Assembly (NCBI RefSeq): GCF_000246855.1
Contig: NC_016609.1
Span: forward strand, 2,542,001 to 2,606,000
Direction of reading: 5' to 3'
Length of the DNA stretch: 64,000 nucleotides
From: Niastella koreensis GR20-10
Lineage (GTDB): Bacteria > Bacteroidota > Bacteroidia > Chitinophagales > Chitinophagaceae
Shown here: in pieces, positions 25,203 to 43,967 of the stretch
Layout of the letters: every line of letters begins with the position of its first letter
Numbering within the stretch: the first letter of the stretch is position 1
Notes under the pieces: model-generated
What the model was told of the DNA's origin: nothing
The model's database searches: none
Seen by the model: the letters and a program-made list of their open reading frames with translations, nothing else
Position numbers and translations under genes: made by a program

Positions 25203-25748
25203 CTATTTAACCTTTACCAATTCTCCTGCCCCGTTATAAACCACTTTCTTTGTGTCTTTACCATTACTGGCTATAAACTCATAGTATTCCTTGCTGTTGT
25301 CGTAGTTGGTATTCTTGTAATAGGTTTTCGAACTTAATTTGTACCCAGGATATTGTTTGGATAGATTTTGTAAAGAGGCCTTGATGGCATCCGGAACATG
25401 TGTTACGGTTTCCTTGTATTTGGACATTACGAGTGTGCCATCGGCCTTGTACAGGCCATAATATTGAAAATCGGCTCTTTTAAACTTAAGGGTGTACATA
25501 TCGATATCATTGTCACCCGGAATATTGTCATCTACAGTGATCTCCCACCCTTTTGCAGCTGCGTCGTGCGGGATCTTGTAATATGCAACAGATTTGGCAT
25601 CGGGGAACCTCGCTTCCAGCGAATCGATGATCTGTTTGGGCGTAAGTTCTTTGGTGATCTTGGTTTTACCTGTAATTACCAGGTCGTCCTGGGCAATGGA
25701 AACCTGGAACATCATTGCCAGGGAAATGAACAATACATTTTTCTTCAT
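25203..25748 (-). CDS. Periplasmic PepSY-like (BLIP-like) protein
   Basis: 181 residues with a signal peptide (MKKNVLFISLAMMFQVSIAQ). Two related segments follow, each with a helix then strands (PKQIIDSLEARFPDAKSVAYY ... and ... AIKASLQNLSKQYPGYKLSS). This is the pattern of PepSY-like/BLIP-like periplasmic proteins of Bacteroidota, small folds often linked to inhibition or sensing. Its ATG overlaps the TGA of the TolB-like gene (ATGA), pointing to translational coupling. Module B at 43-46 kb lacks an equivalent gene. Confidence 0.75.
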   Translation of the reverse strand: MKKNVLFISLAMMFQVSIAQDDLVITGKTKITKELTPKQIIDSLEARFPDAKSVAYYKIPHDAAAKGWEITVDDNIPGDNDIDMYTLKFKRADFQYYGLYKADGTLVMSKYKETVTHVPDAIKASLQNLSKQYPGYKLSSKTYYKNTNYDNSKEYYEFIASNGKDTKKVVYNGAGELVKVK

Positions 25749-26590
25749 ACTGTTTGGTTTTTAAAGTTTGTGCAGGAAAAGTTGCTGGCCTGGTTGGTGA
25801 TAACCTGGCAAATGCCATCCTGTACCTCAAACAAATTGGAGTCGGTAATGGTACAATCAAACACCCTGGACCATATTTGCCGGTAATACCGGCAGTCGAT
25901 GATCTGGATATTTACCCGGCTTCTATTTTGCTGGTACTGGGCGCCTACACTGATGAGGTGGTTGAACCGGAGTGCCGTGCTCAGTTCCTTCAGGTCGCTA
26001 TAGCTGTCGGCCATGCTTTTTGCCACCTGGTAACTGATAACGGAAATGGATTTTACCTGCGATAAAGCGGAACTTATCTGCTGGCACAGGTCATCGAGGA
26101 AGGTGCGGGTGGGTTCGTTCGCAGCGTGATAATTGAAAGGAAGAATAGCAAAGGTCAGTGGTTCGGTTTCGGCATGCGTTTTATTTACCTCGTACGATTT
26201 ATTAAGCAGGCTTTCCTCGAGCCACTGTTGACGGTCCATAAAAACGGGCACATACTTTCCTTTCGGCATGCCAATGATAATTTCATCGTCCGCGCCCGGC
26301 ACGTTGTAGTAATGATATAACGCCCTTCTGAGCCTGCCTGCATGAATGCGTACAATACAATTCTTTTGCGGGTTGAAGTTGACAGGCTTTTGTAATACTT
26401 TCAGTGCTATCGTATATTCCTTCAGGCAATTGGCATTGCCGGTAAGCGTTTCCTGTACTACGAACGTAAGAAAACGCTTCAGGATCTCTGAACTGCTGAA
26501 ATCGGGATGCAGAAAGATCCGTTCCAGTTGTTGTTCTATGGCGCGGCTGTTTAACCAGGCAGGCGCAGCAGTTGGCATCGGGAAGTCCAT
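25745..26590 (-). CDS. Winged-helix-like/TolB-like protein (module A)
   Basis: 281 residues, no signal peptide or membrane helix. The N-terminal domain (about 18-115) carries a pattern seen at the front of cyclase- and TPR-associated regulators: ILKRFLTFVVQETL, LKEYTIALKVL, CIVRIHAGRLRRALYHYY, MPKGKYVPVF. The C-terminal domain (about 145-265) resembles the TolB-like N-terminal domain: TFAILPFNYH, ISSALSQVKSISVISYQVAKS, INIQIIDCRYYRQIWSRVFD-like strands. No response-regulator site, kinase or TPR tail is present. I read it as a cytoplasmic regulator; DNA binding is inference. It is a close paralogue of the gene at 43137 (over half the residues look identical in the N-terminal domain). Confidence 0.7.
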   Translation of the reverse strand: MDFPMPTAAPAWLNSRAIEQQLERIFLHPDFSSSEILKRFLTFVVQETLTGNANCLKEYTIALKVLQKPVNFNPQKNCIVRIHAGRLRRALYHYYNVPGADDEIIIGMPKGKYVPVFMDRQQWLEESLLNKSYEVNKTHAETEPLTFAILPFNYHAANEPTRTFLDDLCQQISSALSQVKSISVISYQVAKSMADSYSDLKELSTALRFNHLISVGAQYQQNRSRVNIQIIDCRYYRQIWSRVFDCTITDSNLFEVQDGICQVITNQASNFSCTNFKNQTV

Positions 26591-30527: not shown

Positions 30528-31814
30528 TTACATAAGTGTGAACTGTATTCTGCTTTGAAAGAACTGTACGGGGCCCTTTATATTAAAGCGATCGAGTACC
30601 CCATAGCCATAAACAAATTCCATTCTGAAGACCTTGGTAACATACCAGTTGATCATGGGCGTAATACGCCAGAACTTACCTCCTGCAATTGACCGGTCGT
30701 TCAGATCGAGCATGGAATAATGTACAACGGCTTCCCATTCACCCCAGCCTCCTTTGAACACTGATTTTTTTACCGGCACAAAGCCGAGGATGTTTCCATT
30801 GGTTGAATAAGGCCGAACTGCGCCGGTAAAGAGCCATGTAACTACCACATTGCCACCATAGAACCGGTGGTTCTCGGCATTGTCCGCATAAAAATTATGC
30901 ATCATTACTTCAGATCCTATCAAAAAGCCTTTGTTACTGTAATACACTTCGGCCCCAATGTGGCTTGAGTGGTCGGCTGTAAAGGCGCCGGTGTTAATGA
31001 TCTGCGGGGTGGGATTCGATTCCGGTCTCGACTTCAGCGTGATCTTTCCATCAACCGGTTTTCCATAACGCAGGTTAACACCCACATGCAATACTTCATT
31101 TGTTTTTTGAAAATAGATGGGTAACCAGCCAACCCGGGCATCATATTGCCAGGCATACGTAGAAAAACCCTGGCCTTTGGAAAGGATATCGTTATAAGCG
31201 CCGAGGTTCCAGAATACCCTGGGCTTTGGCAAATATCCAAAGTACTTGATGCCATCGGCCAGAATAGGAATTACATCCAATGCCATCTGGCGTTCTGCGG
31301 TCCAGGGAGAGTGCCCGTTCATAACCTTTACCATAGAGTAACCTTCTTTGGTGCGCCCGATAAAAATATGCCCGGCCAGTTCCGGTACACCAATGGTAAG
31401 CCCCGACTCCCGCACCAGCCATTTTTCATTATCGCCATCCCACATATAGGCAAACTTAAATGCCAGGTATCGTTTGGTTTTAAATACACCGCTGCCCAAC
31501 ACTCTAAAGTCTCTCAGTTTAAAATCGGGTTTCAGGTTATAGTGCAGGGAATCCATTTGTTGTTTGAATTTTTCACTCTCACTATAGGCCACAAAATCAT
31601 GAATATAACCGAGGCCAATTTTAAAGGTGGCTATAGGTCCTACGAATTCATTGGGTTTCATGTTTTTCCCGGTGTCAGCGGGATTAAAAGTTAAACCATC
31701 CGTACCGTTAGGAAGAAGCTTTGTAGTATCCTGCGACCGGGTAAAAAGTGGGAGGATGCCTATAAGCAAGCTAAGTAACACCCTCCCTGTTGCGCTTCCC
31801 GTGTTAATATTCAT
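30528..31814 (-). CDS. OprP/OprO-like porin
   Basis: 428 residues from ATG 31814, with a signal peptide ending at LFTRSQD. The body is strand-rich and ends with GGWGEWEAVVHYSMLDLND, FWRITPMINWYVTKVFRMEF and YGYGVLDRF, the typical C-terminal pattern of phosphate-selective porin O/P-type barrels (anion-selective). Its ATG lies inside the 3' end of the asparaginase gene: the two overlap by 11 bp (ATGAATATTAA), implying translational coupling. The upstream TTG at 31838 is therefore unlikely. Substrate is not shown; aspartate or asparagine passage is inferred from the operon. Confidence 0.82.
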   Translation of the reverse strand: MNINTGSATGRVLLSLLIGILPLFTRSQDTTKLLPNGTDGLTFNPADTGKNMKPNEFVGPIATFKIGLGYIHDFVAYSESEKFKQQMDSLHYNLKPDFKLRDFRVLGSGVFKTKRYLAFKFAYMWDGDNEKWLVRESGLTIGVPELAGHIFIGRTKEGYSMVKVMNGHSPWTAERQMALDVIPILADGIKYFGYLPKPRVFWNLGAYNDILSKGQGFSTYAWQYDARVGWLPIYFQKTNEVLHVGVNLRYGKPVDGKITLKSRPESNPTPQIINTGAFTADHSSHIGAEVYYSNKGFLIGSEVMMHNFYADNAENHRFYGGNVVVTWLFTGAVRPYSTNGNILGFVPVKKSVFKGGWGEWEAVVHYSMLDLNDRSIAGGKFWRITPMINWYVTKVFRMEFVYGYGVLDRFNIKGPVQFFQSRIQFTLM

Positions 31815-32877
31815 AAAATATCTTTTGCAGGTCGGCATTGCTTCTTTGTTTCAGCAATGCCACCATCAGCAGGATCCTTGATTTTTGCGGGTTGTGGTCA
31901 TAAGAAGCCACAAACCCCATCTTATCATCATCCACTTCTACATTGCGGCCTACGTTGCCGGTAACCACGCGGCTGCTTCTTACTATCACCACACCTTTTT
32001 TAGCGGCTCTTTCGCAGGCTTCCAGTCCGGCCTTGTTCATATTGCCATTGCCAACACCGGCAATCACAATTCCTTTGGCGCCGTGTTCAACAGAAGCATC
32101 TACGAGGTCGGCGGGCATATCCGCATCGGCATAAATAATATCCACGCGCGGAAGTTTGGTTACATTGTCTACAGAGAATTCGCTTTGGCTGCCGTATTTG
32201 TTAAATGGGAAACGATAAAACTCATTTGTACCATAATTGCTGATGCCGATAAGGCCATTCAATGGCGACATAAATGTTTGCACAGCGGTAGTGCTTACTT
32301 TGGTGAGGCTTTGTGCAGAATGGATCCAGTCGTTCATTACCAGTAACACCCCGCGTTTTTTGGCATTGGGGTCTGCTGCAACGGCCACTGCATTGTACAA
32401 ATTAAGCGGACCATCGGCACTAACGGCGGTAGAAGGCCGCATGGAGCCTACCAATACAATAGGCAGATCTGTTTTACAAACCAGGTTCAGGAAATAAGCG
32501 GTTTCTTCCATGGTATCGGTACCATGGGTAATCACAATACCATCCAGACCGCCCTGTTGGGTTAACTCAGCAATTCTTTTTGCCAGCTTCAGCATGATCT
32601 CGAACGACATATCCTGTGAACCCACATTGGAGATCTGCTCCCCTTTTATATTGGCCAGTTTGGTAATATCGGGTACTGCATTTACCATGGCGTCGATGGT
32701 TACCTGGCCCGAAGTATAGCCCGATTGTACCCCGGTGCTTGCTGCGCCTGCAATGGTACCACCTGTTGCCAGGATTACTACATTCGCTTTTTTCTGAGCG
32801 AAACTGTTAAGGCTTACCAACACCAACACAACGGTAAGCTTACTCCACAAAGCTGTTATAAGGGTTTTCATTGTCAA
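31804..32877 (-). CDS. ansB: Exported type II L-asparaginase
   Basis: 357 residues. A signal peptide (hydrophobic LTVVLVLVSLNSFA, then Q) precedes a complete type II asparaginase: ILATGGTIAGAAS near residue 37 (catalytic Thr) and VITHGTDTMEETAYFL near 113 (second Thr-Asp; Lys expected downstream), then VGSMRPSTAVSADGPLNLYNAV. It hydrolyses L-asparagine to aspartate and ammonia in the periplasm. It follows aspA with a 101-bp gap and overlaps the porin gene. An alternative ATG lies at 32871. Confidence 0.95.
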   Translation of the reverse strand: MTMKTLITALWSKLTVVLVLVSLNSFAQKKANVVILATGGTIAGAASTGVQSGYTSGQVTIDAMVNAVPDITKLANIKGEQISNVGSQDMSFEIMLKLAKRIAELTQQGGLDGIVITHGTDTMEETAYFLNLVCKTDLPIVLVGSMRPSTAVSADGPLNLYNAVAVAADPNAKKRGVLLVMNDWIHSAQSLTKVSTTAVQTFMSPLNGLIGISNYGTNEFYRFPFNKYGSQSEFSVDNVTKLPRVDIIYADADMPADLVDASVEHGAKGIVIAGVGNGNMNKAGLEACERAAKKGVVIVRSSRVVTGNVGRNVEVDDDKMGFVASYDHNPQKSRILLMVALLKQRSNADLQKIFYEY

Positions 32878-32923
32878 TCATATTTTAGTTTGGTAATGTT
32901 TTTGCCATCTGCTGTATATCATC

Positions 32924-32978
32924 TGCCGCGCCGAGGTGTATTGCTTAAAGCTTACAGCTTATAGCTTGCAGCTGCTTT
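32924..32978 (-). repeat. Heptamer element related to the 120-bp repeat at 36.5 kb
   Basis: It contains CCGCGCCGAGGTGTATTGCT, which resembles the middle of the 36454-36827 unit (CCGCGCAGCGGTGTATTGCT), followed by 7-bp AAAGCTT/ACAGCTT/ATAGCTT repeats. It lies between asparaginase and aspA, in the 5' region of the asparaginase gene. Confidence 0.7.
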
Positions 32979-34433
32979 CTACTGCCCTTCACCAGTTAAC
33001 GTAACCGGATCAAGCAGCTTCTTTATCTGGTCTTCCGTCAACAATTTCTTTTCCCTGATCAACTCCAAAATGCCTTTACCCGATTTAAGGGCTTCTTTAG
33101 CCAGCTCGGTTGTTTTCTCATACCCAAGCACCGGGTTCAGGGCAGTTACTATGCCCACGCTTTGGGTAATGTATTTGTCCAGGATATTCTTATTAGCTGT
33201 TATGCCATCGATGCAATTCTTTCTGAACAGCGGCAGGGTTTTAAACAACAGGCCCTGCGACTCCATAATGGCAACGGCCTCTACGGGTTCATAAGCGTTT
33301 AATTGCAGCAGTCCGGAGTGTGCGGCCACGGAAACAGTAACATCATTGCCCATCACTTTAAAACACACTTCATTCATTACTTCGGGCATTACCGGGTTTA
33401 CCTTGCCGGGCATAATGGAGGAGCCGGGTTGCAGGGCCGGCAGGTTTATTTCAAAAATACCGGTGCGGGGGCCTGAGGCCAGGAAGATAAGATCGCTGCT
33501 GATCTTTGATAATGCAATGGCAAAACTTTTCAGCGCTGCAGAATAGATCACAAATGCCTGCTGGCTGCTGGTAGCGGCTATCAGGTCACTGCTTTTTACA
33601 ATCGGTTTGCCGGTTATTTTAGCCAGTTCTGCGGCCACTTTATCTGCATAACCAGGTGTAGCGGTAATGCCGGTACCAATAGCGGTAGCGCCCATGTTCT
33701 GTTCACATAAATAAGTTTCTGATTTGCGAAGTGCGGCAATCTCGGCATCGAGCTGGTTGCCGAATGCATGAAACTCCTGTCCCAGGGTCATAGGCACGGC
33801 GTCCTGCCCTTCGGTACGGCCCATTTTTACCATGCCTTTGAATTCATCGCCTTTTTTATGGAATGACTTAGCCAGTGCATCGGCTTCACTTACTAATTTA
33901 TCGTTGTGTAATAACAGCGCTATCTTGATGGCGGTTGGATAGGAATCGTTGGTGGATTGCCCCATGTTCAGATCATCATGGGGTTCTATGGAGTGATAAT
34001 CGCCTTTTTGCTTACCGCTTAACTCCAGCGCAATATTGGCCAGTACTTCGTTTACGTTCATATTGGCCGAAGTGCCGGCGCCGCCCTGGTACATATCAAC
34101 CAAAAACTGATCGCGGTATTTGCCATCTATTACGGCCTGACAGGCTTTTTCAATAGCGGCCAGTTTCTCAGGTTTCATATTGCCCACCTGGGTATTGGCC
34201 CTTGCCGCGGCCAGTTTTACCATGGCAAATGCTTTTACATAATCCGGATAAAAAGAAGTTGGAACACCGCTTATGGTGAAGTTCTCCAACGCGCGTGCTG
34301 TTTGCACCCCATAATAGGCTTTGGCATCTATTTGCTTTTCACCTAACAGGTCTTTTTCGGTGCGCGTTTGCTGGGCTGATAGTGACTGTTGTATAAGCAG
34401 CGTTACTACAGTGGAGGAAAATATTCGTTTCAT
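32979..34433 (-). CDS. aspA: Exported aspartate ammonia-lyase
   Basis: 484 residues. The enzyme core is standard for the aspartase/fumarase family: DLLGEKQIDAKAYYGVQTAR near the start, MGQSTNDSYPTAIKI, and the signature loop GSSIMPGKVNPVMPEVMNE with the catalytic Ser. It converts L-aspartate to fumarate and ammonia; aspartase is favoured over fumarase by the DLLGE...YYGVQTxRA opening and the adjacent asparaginase. Oddly, it starts with MKRIFSSTVVTLLIQQSLSAQQ, a clear signal peptide, whereas aspartases are cytoplasmic. The start codon choice matters: starting later would lose conserved core only after residue 22. Confidence 0.93.
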   Translation of the reverse strand: MKRIFSSTVVTLLIQQSLSAQQTRTEKDLLGEKQIDAKAYYGVQTARALENFTISGVPTSFYPDYVKAFAMVKLAAARANTQVGNMKPEKLAAIEKACQAVIDGKYRDQFLVDMYQGGAGTSANMNVNEVLANIALELSGKQKGDYHSIEPHDDLNMGQSTNDSYPTAIKIALLLHNDKLVSEADALAKSFHKKGDEFKGMVKMGRTEGQDAVPMTLGQEFHAFGNQLDAEIAALRKSETYLCEQNMGATAIGTGITATPGYADKVAAELAKITGKPIVKSSDLIAATSSQQAFVIYSAALKSFAIALSKISSDLIFLASGPRTGIFEINLPALQPGSSIMPGKVNPVMPEVMNEVCFKVMGNDVTVSVAAHSGLLQLNAYEPVEAVAIMESQGLLFKTLPLFRKNCIDGITANKNILDKYITQSVGIVTALNPVLGYEKTTELAKEALKSGKGILELIREKKLLTEDQIKKLLDPVTLTGEGQ

Positions 34434-34540
34434 TGTAATGGTTGTTTTGGCGGTGTTTTAAAGTTACCCTTTGCCTGCTGATTATCAATTGCTTTTGACC
34501 TGTTCACAGTTAAATGCAACCGGCTTTACAGTTAAGCCCA

Positions 34541-35215
34541 TCAGGGATGTCTGGTTGGTTTAGGATCGGGATGGCCGAACCTGAAAAATACGCTGCCGCC
34601 TAACACAAACTGGGTCATACTGCTATAGGTGGTTACACCAACGCCGGCGCCGCCCGTACCAAAATAAAGGCCGCCACCTGCTGCCTGAGTAGCGCTTTGT
34701 AATTGCGCCTGAAACCTGAACCCCAGGTGATCACTTACCAAAACGTCGGTACCTAAACGAAATCCCCAGGCGAATTTGGTAGCGCTTTGCTTATTACCAT
34801 TATCCGGGTTGCTACCGTCTATGATGGCCACTCCCAACATCAGGCCTGCAAAGGGCTCCAGGCTTCTTTTTTCGGTAAGGTATCGCGTAGCTCCGGCCAT
34901 GAGCCAGTTAATGCCCAGGTCAACATTGCCATCTTTGTCGCCAACCGAGGTGAGATCGTAATAGTGAATAGTAGCATGTGTATTCTGACGCTGATACAAT
35001 AACTCCAGCCCGTATTCATCATGTACTTTAAATTCAAGCCCGATGCCCCACATACCGCCGCCCACGATGGTGCCGTTAAAATAATTGGTAGAACTGTAGT
35101 AGGATTCAACCTTGTCATCGAACACATAATTTCCATACGCGTTTATTCTTGTTTCCTGTGAACGGGCTGCTACTGCAACTGAACTGGCAAAAAGCAACAA
35201 CACATATTTTCTCAT
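34541..35215 (-). CDS. Small outer-membrane beta-barrel protein
   Basis: 224 residues with a signal peptide (MRKYVLLLFASSVAVAARSQ). The mature part has paired amphipathic strands (GGGMWGIGLEFKVHDEYGLELLY, FVLGGSVFFRFG near the end), as in OmpW/opacity-like 8-strand barrels, and a short charged tail after the last strand. It lies 21 bp after the preceding barrel gene and 107 bp before aspA on the same strand. Function unknown; it belongs by position to the exported amino-acid catabolism operon. Confidence 0.75.
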   Translation of the reverse strand: MRKYVLLLFASSVAVAARSQETRINAYGNYVFDDKVESYYSSTNYFNGTIVGGGMWGIGLEFKVHDEYGLELLYQRQNTHATIHYYDLTSVGDKDGNVDLGINWLMAGATRYLTEKRSLEPFAGLMLGVAIIDGSNPDNGNKQSATKFAWGFRLGTDVLVSDHLGFRFQAQLQSATQAAGGGLYFGTGGAGVGVTTYSSMTQFVLGGSVFFRFGHPDPKPTRHP

Positions 35216-35236
35216 ACCTGAATTTTTAAATGGTTA

Positions 35237-36364
35237 TTAAAAGCCAAACCGGTATTGTAAGCCGCCAATGAATTGTTTTCTACTACTGAGAAAACCATAT
35301 TCTGCCCGGATCTGCAAATGTTTATTGATCTGATATTGCCCACCAATAAGGAAATTCCATTGGTCTTTTGGGCGTTTGTCAAGAGAGTATTGTACAGTAG
35401 AATTGCCCACTGTGTTAACCGCCTCTGACGCGCCTTCCAGCAACTGACCTGCTTTTGCCAGGGCTGCATTGGCGGTGTTGTATTTGGCAATGTTCCCCGG
35501 GTTTTGCTGATCGCGGGGGGAAAGACTGCTCCACCAGGCATTTACCTGTTGCTGGCCATTGGCTACCTTAATATAACCGCTGTCTATTTTTTGCTGCCAC
35601 TGTCCGGTAGGAAACAGGTCTCCTATGCTTAACGAGCCGCTGGTACCGCTGTTCATATGTACCCTGAACCCGCCTGCCCAAAGGGCCAGGCTCTGCTCAT
35701 TTTTGAACTTTACATTTTTTCCTATGCGGGGGCCAAAAATAAAAATGTAAGCAGGTTTATCCAGTTCTTTAATATCCGACCAGGTGAAATTCATATCAAG
35801 GGCCATAAAAAAACCGCCTATGCCAAATGTTGGCGTTAACCCAAACCCCGCTGTGGTAGCATCAAAATCAGCTTTTGTATTGATGTTGCCTATTTTTTTC
35901 CAGCTGTTGCTGCTGTCGGGGATCCAAAGACCGGCATTGATCGCCGTGGTGTTTTTTGATTTTGCCAGAATACCATAAACATTCAAAAAAGGAAATACCC
36001 AGAAATCGGGCCTGATGTTGGCGCCATTGGTAGTAGCGGTAGCTTTATCGAACCGGATAATATCATCGCAATTACGCATGGGGCCATGGTTGAACCCCAC
36101 TTGTAGGTTGTCGATTATAATATCCGATTGCTGCCAGATATATTGAACGCTCATCCCTACCGGAAAAGGCAGATCGAACCCTTTATTGATCACTTTTTGT
36201 CCCCAAATGGGCAGCATGTATGGATAGGTTACATGCTTCAAACTGTCGGCCAGTGATACATTTTTCGGTTTTTGTCCTACTATTTTGTCGGCGGTATATT
36301 GTGCGATTGAGTTCCCATGCAGGAAGAAAAGAAATACAGCCATTAAAAAACAGGTAGTACGCAT
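35237..36364 (-). CDS. Outer-membrane protein of unknown function
   Basis: 375 residues from ATG 36364 (signal MRTTCFLMAVFLFFLHGNSIAQ); a TTG at 36373 would add three. The mature protein has barrel-like strands (SVQYIWQQSDIIIDNLQVGF, FGIGGFFMALDMNFTWSD), a helical or linker insert near residues 255-310 (GQWQQKIDSGYIKVANGQQQ), and ends IRAEYGFLSSRKQFIGGLQYRFGF with a terminal Phe, as expected for BAM-dependent barrels. First gene of the minus-strand arm of the block. No family name can be assigned. Confidence 0.72.
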   Translation of the reverse strand: MRTTCFLMAVFLFFLHGNSIAQYTADKIVGQKPKNVSLADSLKHVTYPYMLPIWGQKVINKGFDLPFPVGMSVQYIWQQSDIIIDNLQVGFNHGPMRNCDDIIRFDKATATTNGANIRPDFWVFPFLNVYGILAKSKNTTAINAGLWIPDSSNSWKKIGNINTKADFDATTAGFGLTPTFGIGGFFMALDMNFTWSDIKELDKPAYIFIFGPRIGKNVKFKNEQSLALWAGGFRVHMNSGTSGSLSIGDLFPTGQWQQKIDSGYIKVANGQQQVNAWWSSLSPRDQQNPGNIAKYNTANAALAKAGQLLEGASEAVNTVGNSTVQYSLDKRPKDQWNFLIGGQYQINKHLQIRAEYGFLSSRKQFIGGLQYRFGF

Positions 36365-36852
36365 ATTGCACAATTAGTATGACCACTAATTTACCGATGG
36401 TTTATGCAACAACTAATAATGTAACCGTTCAGTTTAACCGTAAAACGAAAAGCAGCTTTAAGCTGTAAGCTTCAGGCTAAAAGCGAATACAAGGCTTAAA
36501 GCCAAAAGGTAAAAGCTCAAAGCAAATACAAGGTTGCCGCGCAGCGGTGTATTGCTTTTGGCTTTAGGCTTATAGCTTTAAGCTGTAAGCTTCAGGCTAA
36601 AAGCGAATACAAGGCTTAAAGCCAAAAGGTAAAAGCTCAAAGCAAATACAAGGTTGCCGCGCAGCGGTGTATTGCTTTTGGCTTTAGGCTTATAGCTTTA
36701 AGCTGTAAGCTTCAGGCTAAAAGCGAATACAAGGCTTAAAGCCAAAAGGTAAAAGCTCAAAGCAAATACAAGGTTGCCGCGCAGCGGTGTATTGCTTTTG
36801 GCTTTAGGCTTATAGCTTTAAGCTGTATTCCTGTCTGCCGTTTGCCGATTCG
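36365..36852. other. 488-bp spacer, mostly tandem repeat
   Basis: Holds the 120-bp tandem array; the remaining ~90 bp next to the barrel gene (36365-36453) should carry its promoter and include two AACCGT direct repeats (36423, 36435). No gene seen. Confidence 0.6.
36454..36827. repeat. Three identical 120-bp tandem repeats, internally palindromic
   Basis: Units 36454-36573, 36574-36693 and 36694-36813 look identical, plus a 14-bp partial copy. Each unit is itself made of 7-bp repeats (AAGCTTT/AGGCTTA-like) on one side and their reverse complement (AAAGCCA/AAAGCTC-like) on the other, around the centre GCCGCGCAGCGGTGT. No mutations between copies suggests recent amplification. Confidence 0.95.
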
Positions 36853-37875
36853 TTAAAATATGTATGAAATCCCGAAGACTGTTCCGAAGTCGAATTTGCG
36901 GCTTTCTTCATTGGGTGGCTGGTTGTCGAAGTTGGAATATACGGAGGCGGTAAGGTTGAGGTCTTTGATGATCTTGTAACTGAGTGTAGTAGTGGCATCG
37001 TTACGGATGCGGTCTTTTTGCGAAAGGCTGTAATAAAAAGCTTCTGTTATGGTGAAAGTTATTTCCGGTTTTGTATACTTGAAAAAATTAAATTCCAGTT
37101 GTCCGAATAATTCGGCCAGTGTGCCGGTGACAGTATTTTCCGTATTTTTTTCCTGGTTCAGCACCATGCCCATTCTTGTCCACGCATAGATGTTTTTGTT
37201 AGTAATGAATTTATTACCACCCCCTACTCCCTCCTGGTAGCGCCGGAGCAGGCCCAGCTCCAGGTTTCGCTGGTATTTAAGTAACAGGGTGCCAAACCAG
37301 GTGGTGTTGAAATAGTAATTATTTTTTATACTCATGTCTTCCCGGTCGCGGCTGAACGTAGAATCTGTGAGCGTATAAATACCGGAAGCAGCAAGGGTGA
37401 GTTCCAGGTTTTTGGTATTATAACTTATTTTACTGTCATAGTTAATTCTGCCTATTCCGCTGGACCGGGTGAAGTCTAAACCGGCAGAAGCCTGGCCGGA
37501 AAAACGTTGAAAGAAAGCGTTCTTCACCGGGTACAATACAGAAATATTTTCAATGGCATGGGCGGTAGTGTCAATTTCTGACATAAACGTAGCATACCCA
37601 TTGCTGTCACTGGTGGTTATTTTCCCAAAATAAACGATGTGCGAAGTGCTTTCCACCCGGTATAGCCGGTATTGTGCGGCCATGGTGCGTAATTTTTTTA
37701 ATTGTACGGTAATATCATTGGCGTCATCGGGGTCGAAGGTCATCACTCCCAGTTTTATTTTTTTTATTTTCCCAATCACCATGGTCCCGTTCTTAAAATA
37801 GATAGTATCCCTTGGTTGTTGCGCAGCAAGCCAGGCGGCAGCGAGTATCAGCAGAAGCAACAGCGCGTATTTCAT
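36853..37875 (-). CDS. DUF481-like outer-membrane protein
   Basis: 340 residues from ATG 37875 (signal MKYALLLLLILAAAWLAAQQ); a start 48 bp further up has no such signal. An N-terminal domain (about 20-115) has DTIYFKNGTMVIGKIKKIKLGVMTF, the SH3-like or PDZ-like lead of such proteins. A barrel follows, with GQASAGLDFTRSSGIGRINY, LTLAASGIYTLTDSTFSRDRED and LLLKYQRNLELGLLRRY, which fits DUF481. It ends FGISYIF. Function unknown. It is transcribed away from the DcaP-like gene and separated from the barrel at 36364 by the tandem array. Confidence 0.78.
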   Translation of the reverse strand: MKYALLLLLILAAAWLAAQQPRDTIYFKNGTMVIGKIKKIKLGVMTFDPDDANDITVQLKKLRTMAAQYRLYRVESTSHIVYFGKITTSDSNGYATFMSEIDTTAHAIENISVLYPVKNAFFQRFSGQASAGLDFTRSSGIGRINYDSKISYNTKNLELTLAASGIYTLTDSTFSRDREDMSIKNNYYFNTTWFGTLLLKYQRNLELGLLRRYQEGVGGGNKFITNKNIYAWTRMGMVLNQEKNTENTVTGTLAELFGQLEFNFFKYTKPEITFTITEAFYYSLSQKDRIRNDATTTLSYKIIKDLNLTASVYSNFDNQPPNEESRKFDFGTVFGISYIF

Positions 37876-38143
37876 TTTCGCATGTTGTAATAAATGAATG
37901 TAGTCAATTAAAAATGCGGTCATTCATTTTACGGTTAAACACGTGCGAAATTTAATAACCAATGCAAAACCGTATAACTTTAGCGTAGTAAAGCGTTCGC
38001 CTGATCCGGATCAACCTTCTTCAGAATACATTATGCGCATAAGAGTATTCATGTAATCCATTCCGATGCCTTCCTGAAAAATCCCAGCTCCTGTCCTGCC
38101 AGGGATACGGAACACAACCCTTACTATTTTAAAATATTTGTTT

Positions 38144-39367
38144 ATGAAGCATTGCTGTTTATTGGTCCCTGCTTTACTTTTTTCTTCGTTGTATTGTATG
38201 GCGCAACAAAGCGATAAGTTTGATAGCACCAGGGTGAAGGCGCTGGAAATTTATGGGTTTGTAATGACCGATGCAGGCTACAATTTCGACCAGATAAATC
38301 CCAACTGGTTCGATGCCATGCGCATTACCAAATTGCCTTCATATAAAGATCAGTTCGCGCCTGATGGAAAAGTGTTTTTTGGCATTCGCCAAAGCCGGTT
38401 TGGTGTTAAAGGCTATACCTCAACACCGCTTGGGGAATTGAAAACGGTGTTTGAATTTGATCTGTTCGGGACGGGCGCCGATGAAGGACAAACCACCATG
38501 CGGCTTCGGCACATCTATGCCGAACTGGGCCGGTTTGCCATTGGGCAAACCAATTCACCGTTTATGGATGGCGATGTTTGGCCCAATACGATAGAATACT
38601 GGGGGCCGTCGGGGATGGTGTTCTACCGGAATATCCAGATCCGCTATGCGATCATGCAGGGCAAGAATCAAATATATGTTGCGTTGGAACGGCCAGGCGC
38701 CAGCGCCGACCAGGGCACCTTCGACAGCCGGAATGAGCTGGACAGTGTGCGTGGCCATTTGATCCTGCCCGATTTGTCGGCGCACTACAGGCGAAGTGGC
38801 GACTGGGGGCACATTCAAATTGCGGGAATGCTGCGCGACCTGCGCTGGAAAGACGTGCACACCACAGGTGGTTATAACGTCAGCGACAATGTCCTGGGTT
38901 GGGGCGCTCACTTCAGCACCGTGCTTAATCTCAGCTCTAACGATGTATTCAGAGGGTCATTTGTATATGGCCATGGCATAGAGAACTACATGCAGGATGC
39001 ACCAGTTGATGTGGGTGTGAAAGAACAACCCGGCAATACAACAGAGCCATTTACCGGTGAAGCATTGCCCGTAACCGGGATCCATGCTTACCTCGATCAT
39101 AACTGGAGCCCAAAACTGAGCACCTCTATCGGGTATTCAAGTGTACATATTGAAAATACAGATGCCGCGGCGCCCAACGCCTACAGAATGGGCCAGTATG
39201 CCAGTGTGAATTTAGTAAGTACCCCTTTCACCAATTCTATGGCAGCTATTGAATTTCAATGGGGCCGGCGTTCCAACTTCACCGATGATTTTCACTCAGA
39301 TTGTTTCAAGATCCAGTTAGCGTTCAAATATAATTTCTCCCAGATCTTTTACCGGAACAAAGAATAA
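38144..39367 (+). CDS. DcaP-like outer-membrane porin
   Basis: 407 residues from ATG 38144 (signal MKHCCLLVPALLFSSLYCMAQ). The mature protein matches the DcaP-type trimeric porin pattern: FVMTDAGYNFDQINPNW, GIRQSRFGVKGYTSTPLGEL, FEFDLFGTG, GRFAIGQTNSPFMDGDVWPN, EYWGPSGMVFYRNIQIRY. In Acinetobacter DcaP passes dicarboxylates and other anions, which would suit aspartate, glutamate or fumarate from the neighbouring enzymes (inference). First of four closely spaced plus-strand genes (gaps 34, 26 and 1 bp). Confidence 0.85.
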   Translation: MKHCCLLVPALLFSSLYCMAQQSDKFDSTRVKALEIYGFVMTDAGYNFDQINPNWFDAMRITKLPSYKDQFAPDGKVFFGIRQSRFGVKGYTSTPLGELKTVFEFDLFGTGADEGQTTMRLRHIYAELGRFAIGQTNSPFMDGDVWPNTIEYWGPSGMVFYRNIQIRYAIMQGKNQIYVALERPGASADQGTFDSRNELDSVRGHLILPDLSAHYRRSGDWGHIQIAGMLRDLRWKDVHTTGGYNVSDNVLGWGAHFSTVLNLSSNDVFRGSFVYGHGIENYMQDAPVDVGVKEQPGNTTEPFTGEALPVTGIHAYLDHNWSPKLSTSIGYSSVHIENTDAAAPNAYRMGQYASVNLVSTPFTNSMAAIEFQWGRRSNFTDDFHSDCFKIQLAFKYNFSQIFYRNKE

Positions 39368-39401
39368 TCTCTATCTATCATCAGTATTAAAAAGAGCCAT
39401 T

Positions 39402-40427
39402 ATGAAGCAGCTATGTTTTAGGAAACAGACAGTCCTCGCATTTATGTTTGCTGTGGTTTGCACTACTACCAGTTTAGGACAGTTAACCCTGCCGCCCGCA
39501 GAGATTGAAAAGGCATTAGATGAAGCTTACAATAAATTCAAAGATCTCAAGGAAGGCAAAAATGCCGATTATATAAAAGAGCTGGCCAATGTAGATCCGA
39601 ACATTTTTGGCATTGCGCTGATAACCATCGATGGAAAGGTGTATACCAAAGGCGATATCAACTCTATGGTGTCTATACAAAGTGTATCAAAAGTGTTCAC
39701 TATGGCAAAAGTGATTGAAGAACAGGGCGCAAAGGCTATTGAAGACAAGATCGGTGTGGATGCTACCGGCATGCGGTTCAACAGTATTGTTGCCATTGAA
39801 ATGCAAAAGGGCAAAGAGATCAATCCGCTGGTGAACCCCGGCGCTATTGCCGCTTCCAGTATGATCAGTGGCGCCGACTCGGCCGCCAAATGGAAAAGCA
39901 TTCTGCAGGTGCAAAGTGATTTTGCCGGCCGGCCGCTTTCATTGAACTGGCCGGTATATGTAAGCGAAGCCGGTGATAATTTACGCAACCAGGCCATTGC
40001 CCACCTGCTGCTCGCTTACGGCCGCATGTATTTCGATCCTGTACAATCAACAGATATTTATACCAAACAATGCGCCATCAACGTAAATGCGAAAGACCTG
40101 GCCACTATGGCTGCCACCCTGGCTAACGGTGGCGTAAATCCCATAACAAAGAAAAAGGTAGTGTCGGCTGAAACGGTGATGCATACGCTGCCGGTGATGT
40201 CTACCGCCGGTTTATACGACAATACCGGCATCTGGTTGTATCATACGGGGCTGCCGGCCAAAAGTGGTGTGGGCGGCGGTTTGCTGGCTGTTTGCCCGGG
40301 TAAATTCGGGATTGCCGTTGTTTCGCCTCCGTTGGATGAAGCCGGCAACAGTGTAAAAGCGCAACGGGTGATCAGTTATGTAGTGGATAAGCTGAAGGTT
40401 AACCCCTATCTCGTACAACCTAAATAA
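39402..40427 (+). CDS. glsA: Exported glutaminase (GlsA family)
   Basis: 341 residues, beta-lactamase-like serine glutaminase. Visible motifs: SIQSVSKVFTMAKVIEEQG near residue 91 (catalytic SxxK), RFNSIVAIEM, PLVNPGAIAASSM, SEAGDNLRNQAIAHLL and LANGGVNPITKKKV. It hydrolyses L-glutamine to glutamate and ammonia. It begins MKQLCFRKQTVLAFMFAVVC and continues TTTSLGQ, a signal peptide, so unlike bacterial GlsA enzymes of about 308 residues it should act in the periplasm. Second gene of the plus-strand operon between two porin genes. Confidence 0.94.
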   Translation: MKQLCFRKQTVLAFMFAVVCTTTSLGQLTLPPAEIEKALDEAYNKFKDLKEGKNADYIKELANVDPNIFGIALITIDGKVYTKGDINSMVSIQSVSKVFTMAKVIEEQGAKAIEDKIGVDATGMRFNSIVAIEMQKGKEINPLVNPGAIAASSMISGADSAAKWKSILQVQSDFAGRPLSLNWPVYVSEAGDNLRNQAIAHLLLAYGRMYFDPVQSTDIYTKQCAINVNAKDLATMAATLANGGVNPITKKKVVSAETVMHTLPVMSTAGLYDNTGIWLYHTGLPAKSGVGGGLLAVCPGKFGIAVVSPPLDEAGNSVKAQRVISYVVDKLKVNPYLVQPK

Positions 40428-40453
40428 GCAACACATTTTATCAGGATATTCTT

Positions 40454-41791
40454 ATGAAACAATATATACATCAAGCAAGGCTGGGCCTGATGCTGATAGC
40501 GGCGTTGTGTGCAAATGCCAACAGCAGGGCGCAGCTGGACCCATCGGTATATCAAAAAGATACCGCGAAGGTTGACCAGGTGGAAACTTATCCCAATGAG
40601 ATGATAGCAGGCGAATTAACACCCGGCAAAGGGTTCGGCATTGTAAAAACAAAAGTGGCGAGTTTGAACATCGGGTTGTATTCAATAGTCCGCTATCTGA
40701 ATCAGCTACCAGGTGAACATGACCAGGTTTGGCAGGACCATTTGGGCAGGGACAGGGACCTCACAGGCCGAAATGATTTTTACTGGCATCGTGTTATGAT
40801 CTGGTTTACCGGTTTTGTTATGACACCAAAACTCACATACACCGCTACAGTATGGACCATCATGACCACGCAACAGACCCTGGTGTATGGTAACCTGCAA
40901 TACCGGTTCAATAAATACTTCATTTTTGGCGCCGGTATTATGCCGAATATTTCCATCCGGTCTATGCAGGGACCATTTCCCTTTTATTTATCAACCGACC
41001 GTACCATGGGAGAAGAAAGCCTGCGGGCCGGTTTTACCAATGGTTTTTTTGTAAAGGGTGAAGTGTTGCCCAGGTTGAATTATGTTTTGATGCTGGGTGA
41101 TAACCTGAGCATCCTGGGTATTGCTGCAGCCAAATTAACCCGCACCATGTCGAAGGGCGTGGGTTTGCTATGGTTGCCAACTACGGGGGAATATGGGCCG
41201 CGGGGCGGACTGGTTGATTTTGAACACCACGATAAAGTGGCCACCCGGTTCGGCGTTAACTATACCCATTGCCGGGATAACCGGTTCAACAATACCGGTC
41301 AGCCATCGCCCGATAATACACAGGTACGCATGACCGATGGTGTGCTGTTTTTTGAGACCGGCGCGCTGGCAGATGGTGTTACCGTAAACGAAGCCAATTA
41401 TGATATGATAGCCACCGACCTGGGTATAAAGTATAAGGGCTTCAATGCACAGGTGGAATTGTATTACCGCTCACTTACCAAATTTGATGCAGATGGCCCG
41501 TTGCCGGTAAGTTCCCTGCGGGATAAAGGCTACAGCCTGCAATTATCACAAATGGTGATCCCCAAAAAACTATGTATCTACGGCATTCACTCCTATTTTT
41601 TTGATGCGTTTAAGCGGCACCCCTGGGAAGCTGGCGGTGGCGTTAACTTCTATCCCATGAAGTCGAGAAGCTGGCGGCTGAATGCCCAGGCGCACTATGT
41701 ATATAAAAGCTCGGCCGGCGGCACCTTCGGGTTATATGCGGGCGGACAAACAGGCACTACTATTACAATAGGTACCGATATCTTATTATAA
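40454..41791 (+). CDS. OprP-like outer-membrane porin
   Basis: 445 residues with a signal peptide (cut near NSRAQ). The sequence alternates strands and loops throughout: GLYSIVRYLNQLPGEHDQVW, VMIWFTGFVMTPKLTYTATVWT, LQYRFNKYFIFGAGIMPN, GVNYTHCRDNRFNNTGQPSPD and a final GLYAGGQTGTTITIGTDILL. This fits the phosphate-selective porin O/P superfamily in broad terms. It lies 26 bp after glutaminase and 1 bp before the amidohydrolase, so co-transcription is near certain. Confidence 0.78.
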   Translation: MKQYIHQARLGLMLIAALCANANSRAQLDPSVYQKDTAKVDQVETYPNEMIAGELTPGKGFGIVKTKVASLNIGLYSIVRYLNQLPGEHDQVWQDHLGRDRDLTGRNDFYWHRVMIWFTGFVMTPKLTYTATVWTIMTTQQTLVYGNLQYRFNKYFIFGAGIMPNISIRSMQGPFPFYLSTDRTMGEESLRAGFTNGFFVKGEVLPRLNYVLMLGDNLSILGIAAAKLTRTMSKGVGLLWLPTTGEYGPRGGLVDFEHHDKVATRFGVNYTHCRDNRFNNTGQPSPDNTQVRMTDGVLFFETGALADGVTVNEANYDMIATDLGIKYKGFNAQVELYYRSLTKFDADGPLPVSSLRDKGYSLQLSQMVIPKKLCIYGIHSYFFDAFKRHPWEAGGGVNFYPMKSRSWRLNAQAHYVYKSSAGGTFGLYAGGQTGTTITIGTDILL

Positions 41792-41792
41792 C

Positions 41793-42854
41793 ATGATGAA
41801 AATAATAACAGCGCTGATACTACTGGCGCCATTGGCAACCACGGCGCAAACCAACACCACCACCGATACTTCCTTGTTTTACGATTCGCACTTTCACTTA
41901 ACCAATTATGTGCAGGAAGGGATCTCCGTTCAGCAGTTCCTGCAGGTGATGAAAGGAAAAGTGGGCCGCTCCACCCTGTTTGGCATTCCCCTGCAACAAG
42001 AATGGTCTTATGGCAATACGGGCGATTTTGCGCCCACCTATTACCTGGCCAGCGACGCGCCTTTGTATTATTACTCCTTTACCGATGCGTACATTGCCAT
42101 GTCCTATCGCAGCCTTCCAAAAGAAGATCAGCAAAAGTTTGATCCTATGATCACCGGGTTCAACCCGGCTGATATGTATGCGGCAGACCATATCAAAAGG
42201 GTATTGAAATTATTTCCGGGGGTATTCTCCGGAATCGGCGAGTTTACCATTCATAAAGAATTTGTTTCTTCCAAAGTGGCAGGTGAGGTGGCTTCATTGA
42301 CAAATCCTGCACTTGACCGCATCCTGGATTTCGCCGCGGAAGCGGGTTTGGTAGTATTAATGCATAGTGATATCAATATGCCTTATCCAAAACCCGGGCA
42401 GGAGCCTTATTTGCTGAAACAGATCCACAGCCTGTTTCAGCGTCATCCTAACACCACTATTATTTGGGCGCATTGTGGCCTGGGCCGGGTTGTGCAACCT
42501 GTACAGGACCAGCTTAAAATGCTGGATGTAGTATTAAGCGACCCTGCATTGAAACATGTACATATAGATATTTCCTGGGATGAGGTGGCCAAATACATCG
42601 TGTCAACCCCTGAAACGATAAAGGCAACGGCTGCCGTGATCAACAAATATCCCGACCGGTTCCTGATGGGTTCAGACGAAGTAGCCCCGGCCACCCAGGA
42701 GAAATATTTGAAAGTGTATTATATGTATGAACCATTGTTAAAGCAACTAACACCCGAAGCAAAGCAAAAACTGCTGAAGGGTAACTATTCCCGGCTTTTT
42801 GATAACGCCCGTCAAGAAGTTCGGAAATGGGAAGCGGCGCATGTCAATAATTAA
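41793..42854 (+). CDS. Exported amidohydrolase-family metalloenzyme
   Basis: 353 residues with a signal peptide (MMKIITALILLAPLATTAQ). The rest is a TIM-barrel amidohydrolase: FYDSHFHLTNY near residue 30 (first metal HxH), VVLMHSDINMPYP near 190 (metal His), IIWAHCGLGRVV near 225 (metal His), and FLMGSDEVAP near 290 (metal Asp). Amidohydrolase_2-type proteins of this kind hydrolyse or decarboxylate small acids. The substrate is unknown; its place in an exported Gln/Asn-degrading operon suggests another amide or amino-acid derivative. It starts 1 bp after the porin stop. Confidence 0.85.
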   Translation: MMKIITALILLAPLATTAQTNTTTDTSLFYDSHFHLTNYVQEGISVQQFLQVMKGKVGRSTLFGIPLQQEWSYGNTGDFAPTYYLASDAPLYYYSFTDAYIAMSYRSLPKEDQQKFDPMITGFNPADMYAADHIKRVLKLFPGVFSGIGEFTIHKEFVSSKVAGEVASLTNPALDRILDFAAEAGLVVLMHSDINMPYPKPGQEPYLLKQIHSLFQRHPNTTIIWAHCGLGRVVQPVQDQLKMLDVVLSDPALKHVHIDISWDEVAKYIVSTPETIKATAAVINKYPDRFLMGSDEVAPATQEKYLKVYYMYEPLLKQLTPEAKQKLLKGNYSRLFDNARQEVRKWEAAHVNN

Positions 42855-43136: not shown

Positions 43137-43967
43137 ATGAACTTCCCGACTCCGTTCGTAGCTAACAAACTGTTTAGCTACGACTCCATTGCCGACCAAT
43201 TGGATAGAATATTTGCGCATCCTGATTTCAGCAAGTCAGAGATCCTGAAAAAATTCCTGTCCTACATCGTTCATGAAACCCTCATTGGCAGTTCGCATTG
43301 TATAAAGGAATATACAATAGCGCTGCATGTTCTTGAAAAACCAGTTAGTTTTAATCCGCAGAAAGATTGTATTGTTCGCATTCATGCCGGCAGGCTTCGG
43401 CAGGCATTGACGCATTATTATTCCGGCATGGGTTTCAACGACCAGATCGTGATCGGTATTCCCAAAGGAAAGTATGTGCCGGTTTTTATGGACCGCCAGC
43501 AGTTTATTGATGAAAAGAAATTGCTTGCTTCGCCGCGGGAAAGGGAACCAACGGTTCCTGAACTTGAACCGGTGATCTTTGCCATTATGCCAATGATCTG
43601 CACTTCGGAAGGCAAACTGATAAAAGCCTTTAACGACAGCCTTTGTTTGCAGATGTGCACCACGCTGGCGCAACTGAACGAAGTATCTGTGATCGCTTAC
43701 CAGGCCATTAAAAATCTTGCTACAAAGTACCTCGACCTCAAAGAACTGGGCGCCATGGTTGGCTTTAACCACATTATTACCGGCGGAACCCAATACGTAA
43801 AGAACAAGATCCGCATCAACATTCAGATCATAGACAGCCGCACTTACAAACAAATATGGTCGAGGATCTTTGAAAGTAAAGTAACTCCTACCAACCTTTT
43901 CGATATCCAGGACGAGATCTGTAAGCAAACCATCATTCAGGCACAAAGCCTGGTAAACGAATATTAG
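43137..43967 (+). CDS. Winged-helix-like/TolB-like protein (module B)
   Basis: 276 residues, paralogue of the gene at 25745-26590 with the same two domains. N-terminal domain (about 15-115): ILKKFLSYIVHETL, IKEYTIALHVLEKPVSFNPQ, CIVRIHAGRLRQALTHYY, IPKGKYVPVF. C-terminal TolB-like domain (about 140-262): VIFAIMPMICTSEGKLIKAF, AYQAIKNLATKYLDLKELGA, INIQIIDSRTYKQIWSRIFE, NLFDIQDEI. No signal peptide. Probably a cytoplasmic regulator; it faces the same direction as the OmpA/DUF4136/barrel genes downstream. Confidence 0.72.
   Translation: MNFPTPFVANKLFSYDSIADQLDRIFAHPDFSKSEILKKFLSYIVHETLIGSSHCIKEYTIALHVLEKPVSFNPQKDCIVRIHAGRLRQALTHYYSGMGFNDQIVIGIPKGKYVPVFMDRQQFIDEKKLLASPREREPTVPELEPVIFAIMPMICTSEGKLIKAFNDSLCLQMCTTLAQLNEVSVIAYQAIKNLATKYLDLKELGAMVGFNHIITGGTQYVKNKIRINIQIIDSRTYKQIWSRIFESKVTPTNLFDIQDEICKQTIIQAQSLVNEY

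Follow-up and report, generated by a model that had tools for sequence, protein, structure and literature searches.

A block of ten leader-bearing genes in Niastella koreensis

We analyzed a stretch of 64,000 nucleotides (the window) from the single-contig, 9.03-Mb genome of Niastella koreensis GR20-10 (NC_016609.1, positions 2,542,001 to 2,606,000 of the forward strand; coordinates below are counted from the first letter of the window). Ten consecutive open reading frames (ORFs) span positions 30528 to 42854 and include a predicted exported L-asparaginase, aspartate ammonia-lyase (aspartase) and glutaminase. A preliminary description of the window, made from the letters and their ORFs, had seen here a block of exported enzymes that strip ammonia from Asn, Asp and Gln, interleaved with porins, and all ten ORFs were recovered at the coordinates it gave. 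Families were assigned with Pfam and NCBIfam profile searches, as follows.

30528..31838, minus strand: outer-membrane porin of the phosphate-selective porin O/P family (PF07396, E 1.3e-17), last gene of the minus set
31804..32877, minus strand: exported type II L-asparaginase, AnsB-like (TIGR00520, 425.8 bits, cut-off 314.3)
32979..34433, minus strand: exported aspartate ammonia-lyase, AspA (NF008909, 650.4 bits, cut-off 510)
34541..35215, minus strand: small outer-membrane beta-barrel OMP_b-brl (PF13505, E 1.4e-7)
35237..36373, minus strand: exported barrel-like protein (sub-threshold Toluene_X/FadL match only)
36853..37923, minus strand: DUF481 outer-membrane-type protein (PF04338, E 2.4e-14), first gene of the minus set
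38138..39367, plus strand: DcaP-family porin (PF19577, E 4.2e-28, 98.9 bits, cut-off 27), first gene of the plus set
39402..40427, plus strand: exported glutaminase A (NF009020, 439 bits, cut-off 395; TIGR03814, 336.4 bits, cut-off 255.4)
40454..41791, plus strand: exported probable beta-barrel, here the unnamed barrel (no Pfam family)
41793..42854, plus strand: exported Amidohydro_2 metal-dependent hydrolase or decarboxylase, here the amidohydrolase (PF04909, E 2.4e-13)

As the ORF coordinates show, the genes form two diverging, tightly spaced sets. The minus set runs DUF481 protein, barrel-like protein, small barrel, AspA, AnsB and porin, the last two ORFs overlapping by 35 bp. In the plus set the order is DcaP, glutaminase (Gls), unnamed barrel and amidohydrolase, with gaps of 34, 26 and 1 bp. 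Leaders were judged from hydrophobicity (mean Kyte-Doolittle value over 10 residues) and from the boundary residues. All ten ORFs begin with a hydrophobic stretch (best 10-residue mean 2.0 to 3.3), and in every case the leader boundary is A, S or G followed by Q, a boundary frequent among exported Bacteroidota proteins. Coordinates, profile matches and leaders thus bear out the block of ten leader-bearing ORFs with its three enzymes and its two diverging sets, and the DcaP-like porin named in the preliminary description lies above the PF19577 cut-off. Of the two OprP-like porins that it listed, the one at 30528-31838 belongs to PF07396, whereas the one at 40454-41791 matches no Pfam family.

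An asparaginase and an aspartase with leaders are kept together

The asparaginase has both marks of a type II enzyme, namely a score above the TIGR00520 cut-off and a leader, which ends ..SFAQ ahead of KKANVVILATGGT; it gave 347.6 bits to 1wsa. The leader of the glutaminase is MKQLCFRKQTVLAFMFAVVCTTTSLGQ and that of the aspartase is MKRIFSSTVVTLLIQQSLSAQ. Aspartase is known as a cytoplasmic enzyme. Among the ten leaders, that of the window AspA has the lowest hydrophobicity (10-residue mean 2.0), which would favor a misread start, a cytosolic aspartase and genes that are neighbors by chance.

We compared 39 aspartases of the same clade (the window AspA, 29 from a scan of the species genomes of GTDB, and 3 plus 6 from further searches) with 56 cytosolic Bacteroidota aspartases, which are roughly half identical to the window AspA (48 to 53% where listed). 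All 39 clade members carry a leader, with a hydrophobic 10-residue mean of 1.9 to 3.3 in 38 of them, L058 having been read separately. Among the cytosolic enzymes, 53 of 56 clearly have no leader, and the other three have an ambiguous start at an upstream in-frame ATG that may not be the true one. The conserved core is preceded by 1 to 8 residues in 38 of the 56, while 15 (L090, L092, L093, L097, L098, L100, L101, L103-L107 and L109-L111) have an N-terminal extension of another kind, about 155 residues long and possibly a regulatory domain. Exported aspartases contain 3 to 6 cysteines (mostly 4) and cytosolic ones 4 to 10, and the lower count is weakly consistent with export.

An asparaginase gene lies 30 to 1,597 bp from the exported aspartase gene in 39/39 loci, as measured between BLAST matches rather than gene ends (at most 455 bp in 38, and 1,597 bp in L117, where a Dcu gene sits between the two); in L052 and L053 runs of N make the asparaginase leader unreadable. 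As controls we used 25 loci of cytosolic aspartases, picked by us from those at hand and mostly with flanks of about 9 kb, and only three of them have an asparaginase nearby. A DcaP gene is found in the flank of 29/39 exported-aspartase loci compared to 0/25 controls, and an O/P porin in 17/39 compared to 2/25; seven of the controls have a Dcu gene and none a glutaminase. Gene order and strand differ among the exported-aspartase loci, and therefore the AspA-AnsB pair is maintained as such and not just passed on intact. Two loci retrieved later have the leader, the Glu described below and an adjacent asparaginase, bringing the total to 41; these are not independent, since about half are from Flavobacterium (17 by title plus L112-L114, which look similar), L040 equals L113 in sequence, and L050, L053 and L058 come from one metagenome-assembled genome.

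An asparaginase in all 39 loci and in the two later ones, compared to 3/25 controls, led us to reject chance clustering; with leaders throughout the clade as well, misread starts and accidental neighbors together make a scarcely credible explanation. With leaders on all three enzymes, the export predicted for them in the preliminary description is well supported, as is the linkage of the cluster.

The exported aspartases form a single, rare clade

The GTDB scan, which used the window AspA as query and short exact peptide patterns and which reaches close relatives only, returned 29 loci with aspartases 71 to 92% identical to the query, all from Bacteroidota by title. Among the named relatives Niastella yeongjuensis is the nearest; its locus is collinear with that of the window, and the two AspA proteins share 92% identity. 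In samples that overlap and that each count the window's own genome, the clade was found in 6 of 244 genomes of the family, 5 of 396 of the order, 4 of 395 of the class and 7 of 395 of the phylum. The clade is thus rare and patchy in the sampled genomes. From three further genomes of the genus in the sample, the AspA query drew only fumarase-level matches. Both kinds of aspartase occur together in G266, G458 and G548, and a search of the window's genome for a second aspartase returned only a paralogue, 37% identical, with a fumarase-like His-Phe at the amine position.

In a quick maximum-likelihood tree the 36 distinct exported sequences form one clade (SH-aLRT 100), the stem of which measures 1.25 changes per column. 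Identical copies were omitted, as was L058, in which N letters break the AspA sequence, and the program warned of long branches.

The amine site of the exported aspartases is altered

The window AspA passes the NF008909 subfamily model, and the motifs GSSIMPGK (the catalytic serine loop) and QSTND are kept in all 39 exported and all 56 cytosolic aspartases. In alignments with PDB structures it retains Ser338, Lys344, Asn346, Asn162 and Thr207, which align with Ser318, Lys324, Asn326, Asn142 and Thr187 of Bacillus AspB. The next two positions differ: the counterpart of Glu208 is Gln191 in E. coli AspA (1jsw) and His188 in AspB (1j3u). At position 208 the exported enzymes have Glu (39/39) and the cytosolic ones Gln (56/56), and at position 209 they have Gly (38/39) and Leu (56/56), respectively. 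Glu-Gly is also present in both loci found later. Every one of the 25 control loci has the Gln form, which was read from the locus itself in 24 and, for L118, from L090, where the gene is the same. The Gln or His expected of aspartases at the amine-contacting position is therefore absent from all 39 exported enzymes. Glu351, which follows an NPV motif, is likewise conserved in 39/39. The counterpart of this Glu in fumarase C forms a pair with the His found at position 208, so two acids may face the amine in the exported lyase.

These changes suggest that the exported lyase could act on another amine, such as an N-substituted aspartate or a different amino-dicarboxylate. Glu208 and Gly209 would then accommodate an amine that is larger or cationic, and asparaginase and glutaminase would serve a wider amide-scavenging locus. 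In the part of one study consulted here, AspB His188, which aligns with Glu208, and Asn142 are said to contact the amine group (PMC11744663). The clean split at positions 208 and 209, the long stem of the clade and the presence in the same block of an amidohydrolase whose role is unexplained all fit such a substrate. However, the catalytic serine and the carboxylate-pocket residues are conserved, and the asparaginase linked in all 39 loci would supply aspartate on the spot. We consider a different amine unlikely and read the exported lyase as an adapted aspartase with putative aspartate activity.

A glutaminase module accompanies some of the pairs

The closest solved relative of the glutaminase is E. 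coli YbaS (302.9 bits to 1u60), with which it shares an aligned S-x-S-K stretch. A module of glutaminase, unnamed barrel and amidohydrolase is found in 9 of the 41 loci (the window, L034, L046, L051, L063, L064, L115, L143 and G527), and the unnamed barrel accompanies the glutaminase in all nine; the other 32 loci have the AspA-AnsB pair without this module. In Flavobacterium tyrosinilyticum (L046) the module is inserted between AnsB and the genes that directly follow AnsB in other Flavobacterium loci. In G527, which is placed in the window's phylum but outside its class, a region of 17 kb contains genes for exported AspA, Dcu, AnsB, an aspartate:alanine antiporter (L117 15421-17106, minus strand, TIGR03802 above cut-off), amidohydrolase, barrel, glutaminase and DcaP. 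The synteny test proposed in the preliminary description, when run, thus found the three enzymes kept together with DcaP in distant Bacteroidota.

Since YbaS is reportedly the glutaminase of a glutamine-dependent acid-resistance system, we considered whether the periplasmic ammonia would buffer acid or raise the external pH, with the carbon products being secondary. The kinship with YbaS is the sole point in favor. In that system, however, YbaS is cytoplasmic, and neither a glutamate decarboxylase nor an antiporter for such a system is present among the ten block genes, the rest of the genome not having been searched. Moreover, the DcaP-type porin of the block and the C4-dicarboxylate carriers near some relatives point to carbon uptake, and alkali production as the main purpose appears quite improbable.

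The amidohydrolase was matched at E 1e-40 in 6/395 genomes of the phylum sample; three of these also have exported AspA, and the three that lack it belong to one family. Its structure model (pLDDT 58) gave a weak fold match to ACMSD and to COG3618 amidohydrolases (TM-score at most 0.55); the model of the unnamed barrel (pLDDT 36) was too poor for use. Long open frames occur in amidohydrolase relatives of one family (L134, L135 and L136; f52). A glutaminase-amidohydrolase fusion, suggested by long frames in G545, G584 and G608, was rejected. The amidohydrolase of G608 (L134) is fused at its C-terminal side to a different domain, which by eye resembles DUF1080, and follows a transporter-like gene; that of G584 (L135) appears to owe its long frame to a start placed too far upstream. 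In L138-L140 no glutaminase lay nearby.

Inner-membrane carriers near the exported aspartases

A Pfam scan of the ten-gene block found no C4-dicarboxylate carrier. Among the relatives, one lies near exported AspA in 12 of the 41 loci, with Dcu genes in seven (L050, L053, L058, L063, L116, L117 and L144) and DASS genes in five (L036, L039, L047, L055 and L057); no DASS gene lies beside the 25 cytosolic controls. Pfam was run on L036, L050, L055, L057, L116 and L117, and the carriers in L053, L058, L063, L144, L039 and L047 were identified only by similarity in tblastn. The full-length Dcu carriers of L050, L058, L063 and L116 are 76 to 86% identical to each other and at most 64% identical to the carriers beside cytosolic AspA; that of L117 is only 42 to 47% identical to all others (L144 was left out of this comparison). 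We dropped an assignment to DcuA or DcuB, as NCBIfam does not separate them. In L070, L071, L073 and L078 the gene of a cytosolic aspartase adjoins that of a Dcu carrier, and asparaginase is absent. The window's genome encodes two SDF carriers, one of them above the NCBIfam DctA cut-off (570.5 vs 513) and unlinked to the block, and the looser CitMHS family matches four times.

Other barrels, flanking genes and repeats

DcaP-type porins pass dicarboxylates; a direct paper on this selectivity was not found in the open literature searched. Seven relatives of the window's DcaP also exceed the PF19577 cut-off, and OMP_b-brl homologues are present in 5 of 33 clustered loci. Two further features lie in or beside the block.

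36454..36827, no strand: perfect tandem array of a 120-bp unit (3.1 copies), located between the genes of the Toluene_X-like barrel and the DUF481 protein
43137..43967, plus strand: possible regulator (no Pfam hit), kin of the protein divergent to DcaP in 16 Flavobacterium loci

The tandem array is probably incidental to the block. The proteins at 25745-26590 (minus strand) and 43137-43967 (plus strand), which flank the block on either side, are related to each other and have no Pfam match. Their Flavobacterium relatives, divergent to DcaP, gave weak TPR matches, and the one in L036 a weak, sub-threshold HilA-family match; a PHROGs search with the possible regulator returned nothing useful. 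Both flanking proteins are possible regulators. Promoter and terminator scans (32 vs 24.9 in shuffles and 22 vs 16.0, respectively) were not used as evidence.

A candidate periplasmic route from amides to dicarboxylates

We infer that the DcaP, O/P-type and unnamed barrels would let Asn, Asp and Gln through the outer membrane. Once in the periplasm, Asn would be converted by asparaginase II to Asp and ammonia, Asp by the exported aspartase to fumarate and ammonia, and Gln by the glutaminase to Glu and ammonia. In dilute surroundings the equilibrium of aspartase favors fumarate and ammonia. The C4-dicarboxylate and glutamate would then enter through DctA in N. koreensis and, in some relatives, through Dcu or DASS carriers whose genes lie close to the cluster, and the ammonia, released outside the inner membrane, would stay there or diffuse away. 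Judging from leaders, families and linkage, we hold it probable, though by no means certain, that a periplasmic route of this kind feeds carbon import. It probably serves carbon uptake above all and, in the Dcu-bearing relatives, would perhaps supply fumarate for fumarate respiration.

Several observations weigh against this route. The window AspA fails the TIGR00839 aspA equivalog model (598.7 bits, cut-off 681.2), and the replacements at the amine site, of Gln by Glu and of Leu by Gly, could point to another substrate. Because the exported aspartases form a single clade, the leader, the Glu and the other residue change trace to one event on the tree, and their agreement is not independent evidence. 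The route assigns no role to the amidohydrolase or to the unnamed barrel. Regarding uptake, exported aspartases have a Dcu gene beside them no more often (7/41) than cytosolic ones do (7/25), the three Flavobacterium DASS genes (L036, L039 and L047) are 6 to 8 kb off, and the window's genome has neither a PF00939 (DASS) nor a Dcu gene, its DctA being unlinked. The carrier evidence is thus soft, being borrowed from relatives and not specific. The periplasmic fumarate route of the preliminary description is therefore upheld in part: carriers near 12/41 loci and a DctA in the genome speak for it, whereas the frequency of Dcu does not. Ammonia as the wanted product, and nitrogen scavenging, acid defense or a rise in external pH as the purpose, are no more than suggestions of that description.

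A bolder interpretation is that the enzyme is a new periplasmic lyase, whose acidic amine site (Glu208 and possibly Glu351) would serve a different amine substrate or proton chemistry and which, together with asparaginase, glutaminase, amidohydrolase and porins, would make up a general exported deamination machine importing nitrogen-free carbon. We regard this as rather unlikely.

Returning to the periplasmic route, some soil and water bacteria appear, as far as their genes indicate, to strip ammonia from Asn, Asp and Gln outside the inner membrane and then to take up the remaining carbon. If so, carbon would be split from nitrogen before uptake, the cargo crossing the inner membrane would change from aspartate to fumarate, and Bacteroidota using amides and aspartate would release ammonia to their surroundings. 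As a naturally occurring aspartase whose amine site is altered, the enzyme is also of interest to biocatalysis, with cultivable hosts in Niastella and Flavobacterium.

Comparison with known systems

No paper announcing an exported or periplasmic aspartase was found in the open literature searched, subscription papers being mostly outside it. Pairing of asparaginase and aspartase is known from the ansAB operon of Bacillus subtilis, where both enzymes are cytoplasmic. The glutaminase differs from its nearest solved kin, the cytoplasmic E. coli YbaS (1u60), by its leader.

A closer parallel is the AnsB-AspA-DcuA cluster of Actinobacillus succinogenes (Asuc_0140-0142) which, according to the part of the source consulted here, converts Asn and Asp to fumarate and ammonia and includes a putative periplasmic asparaginase II (PMC10634366). 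In both systems asparaginase II and aspartase are clustered, but the A. succinogenes cluster includes DcuA, whereas the window's block has no carrier. As far as that part of the source goes, the aspartase there is cytoplasmic and aspartate crosses the inner membrane; here the aspartase has a leader and fumarate would cross. Porins, glutaminase and amidohydrolase are additions relative to that cluster. The same pair and carrier family also occur in L074, L075 and L121, the first two from the window's own family, but the aspartases of these loci are cytosolic, without a leader and with Gln at the amine position.

Finally, the window AspA shares its family, the catalytic serine loop and the carboxylate-pocket residues with E. 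coli AspA (1jsw), Bacillus AspB (1j3u) and aspartase 6wng. It differs from these enzymes in having Glu208 in place of Gln191/His188, Gly in place of the following Leu, and a leader.

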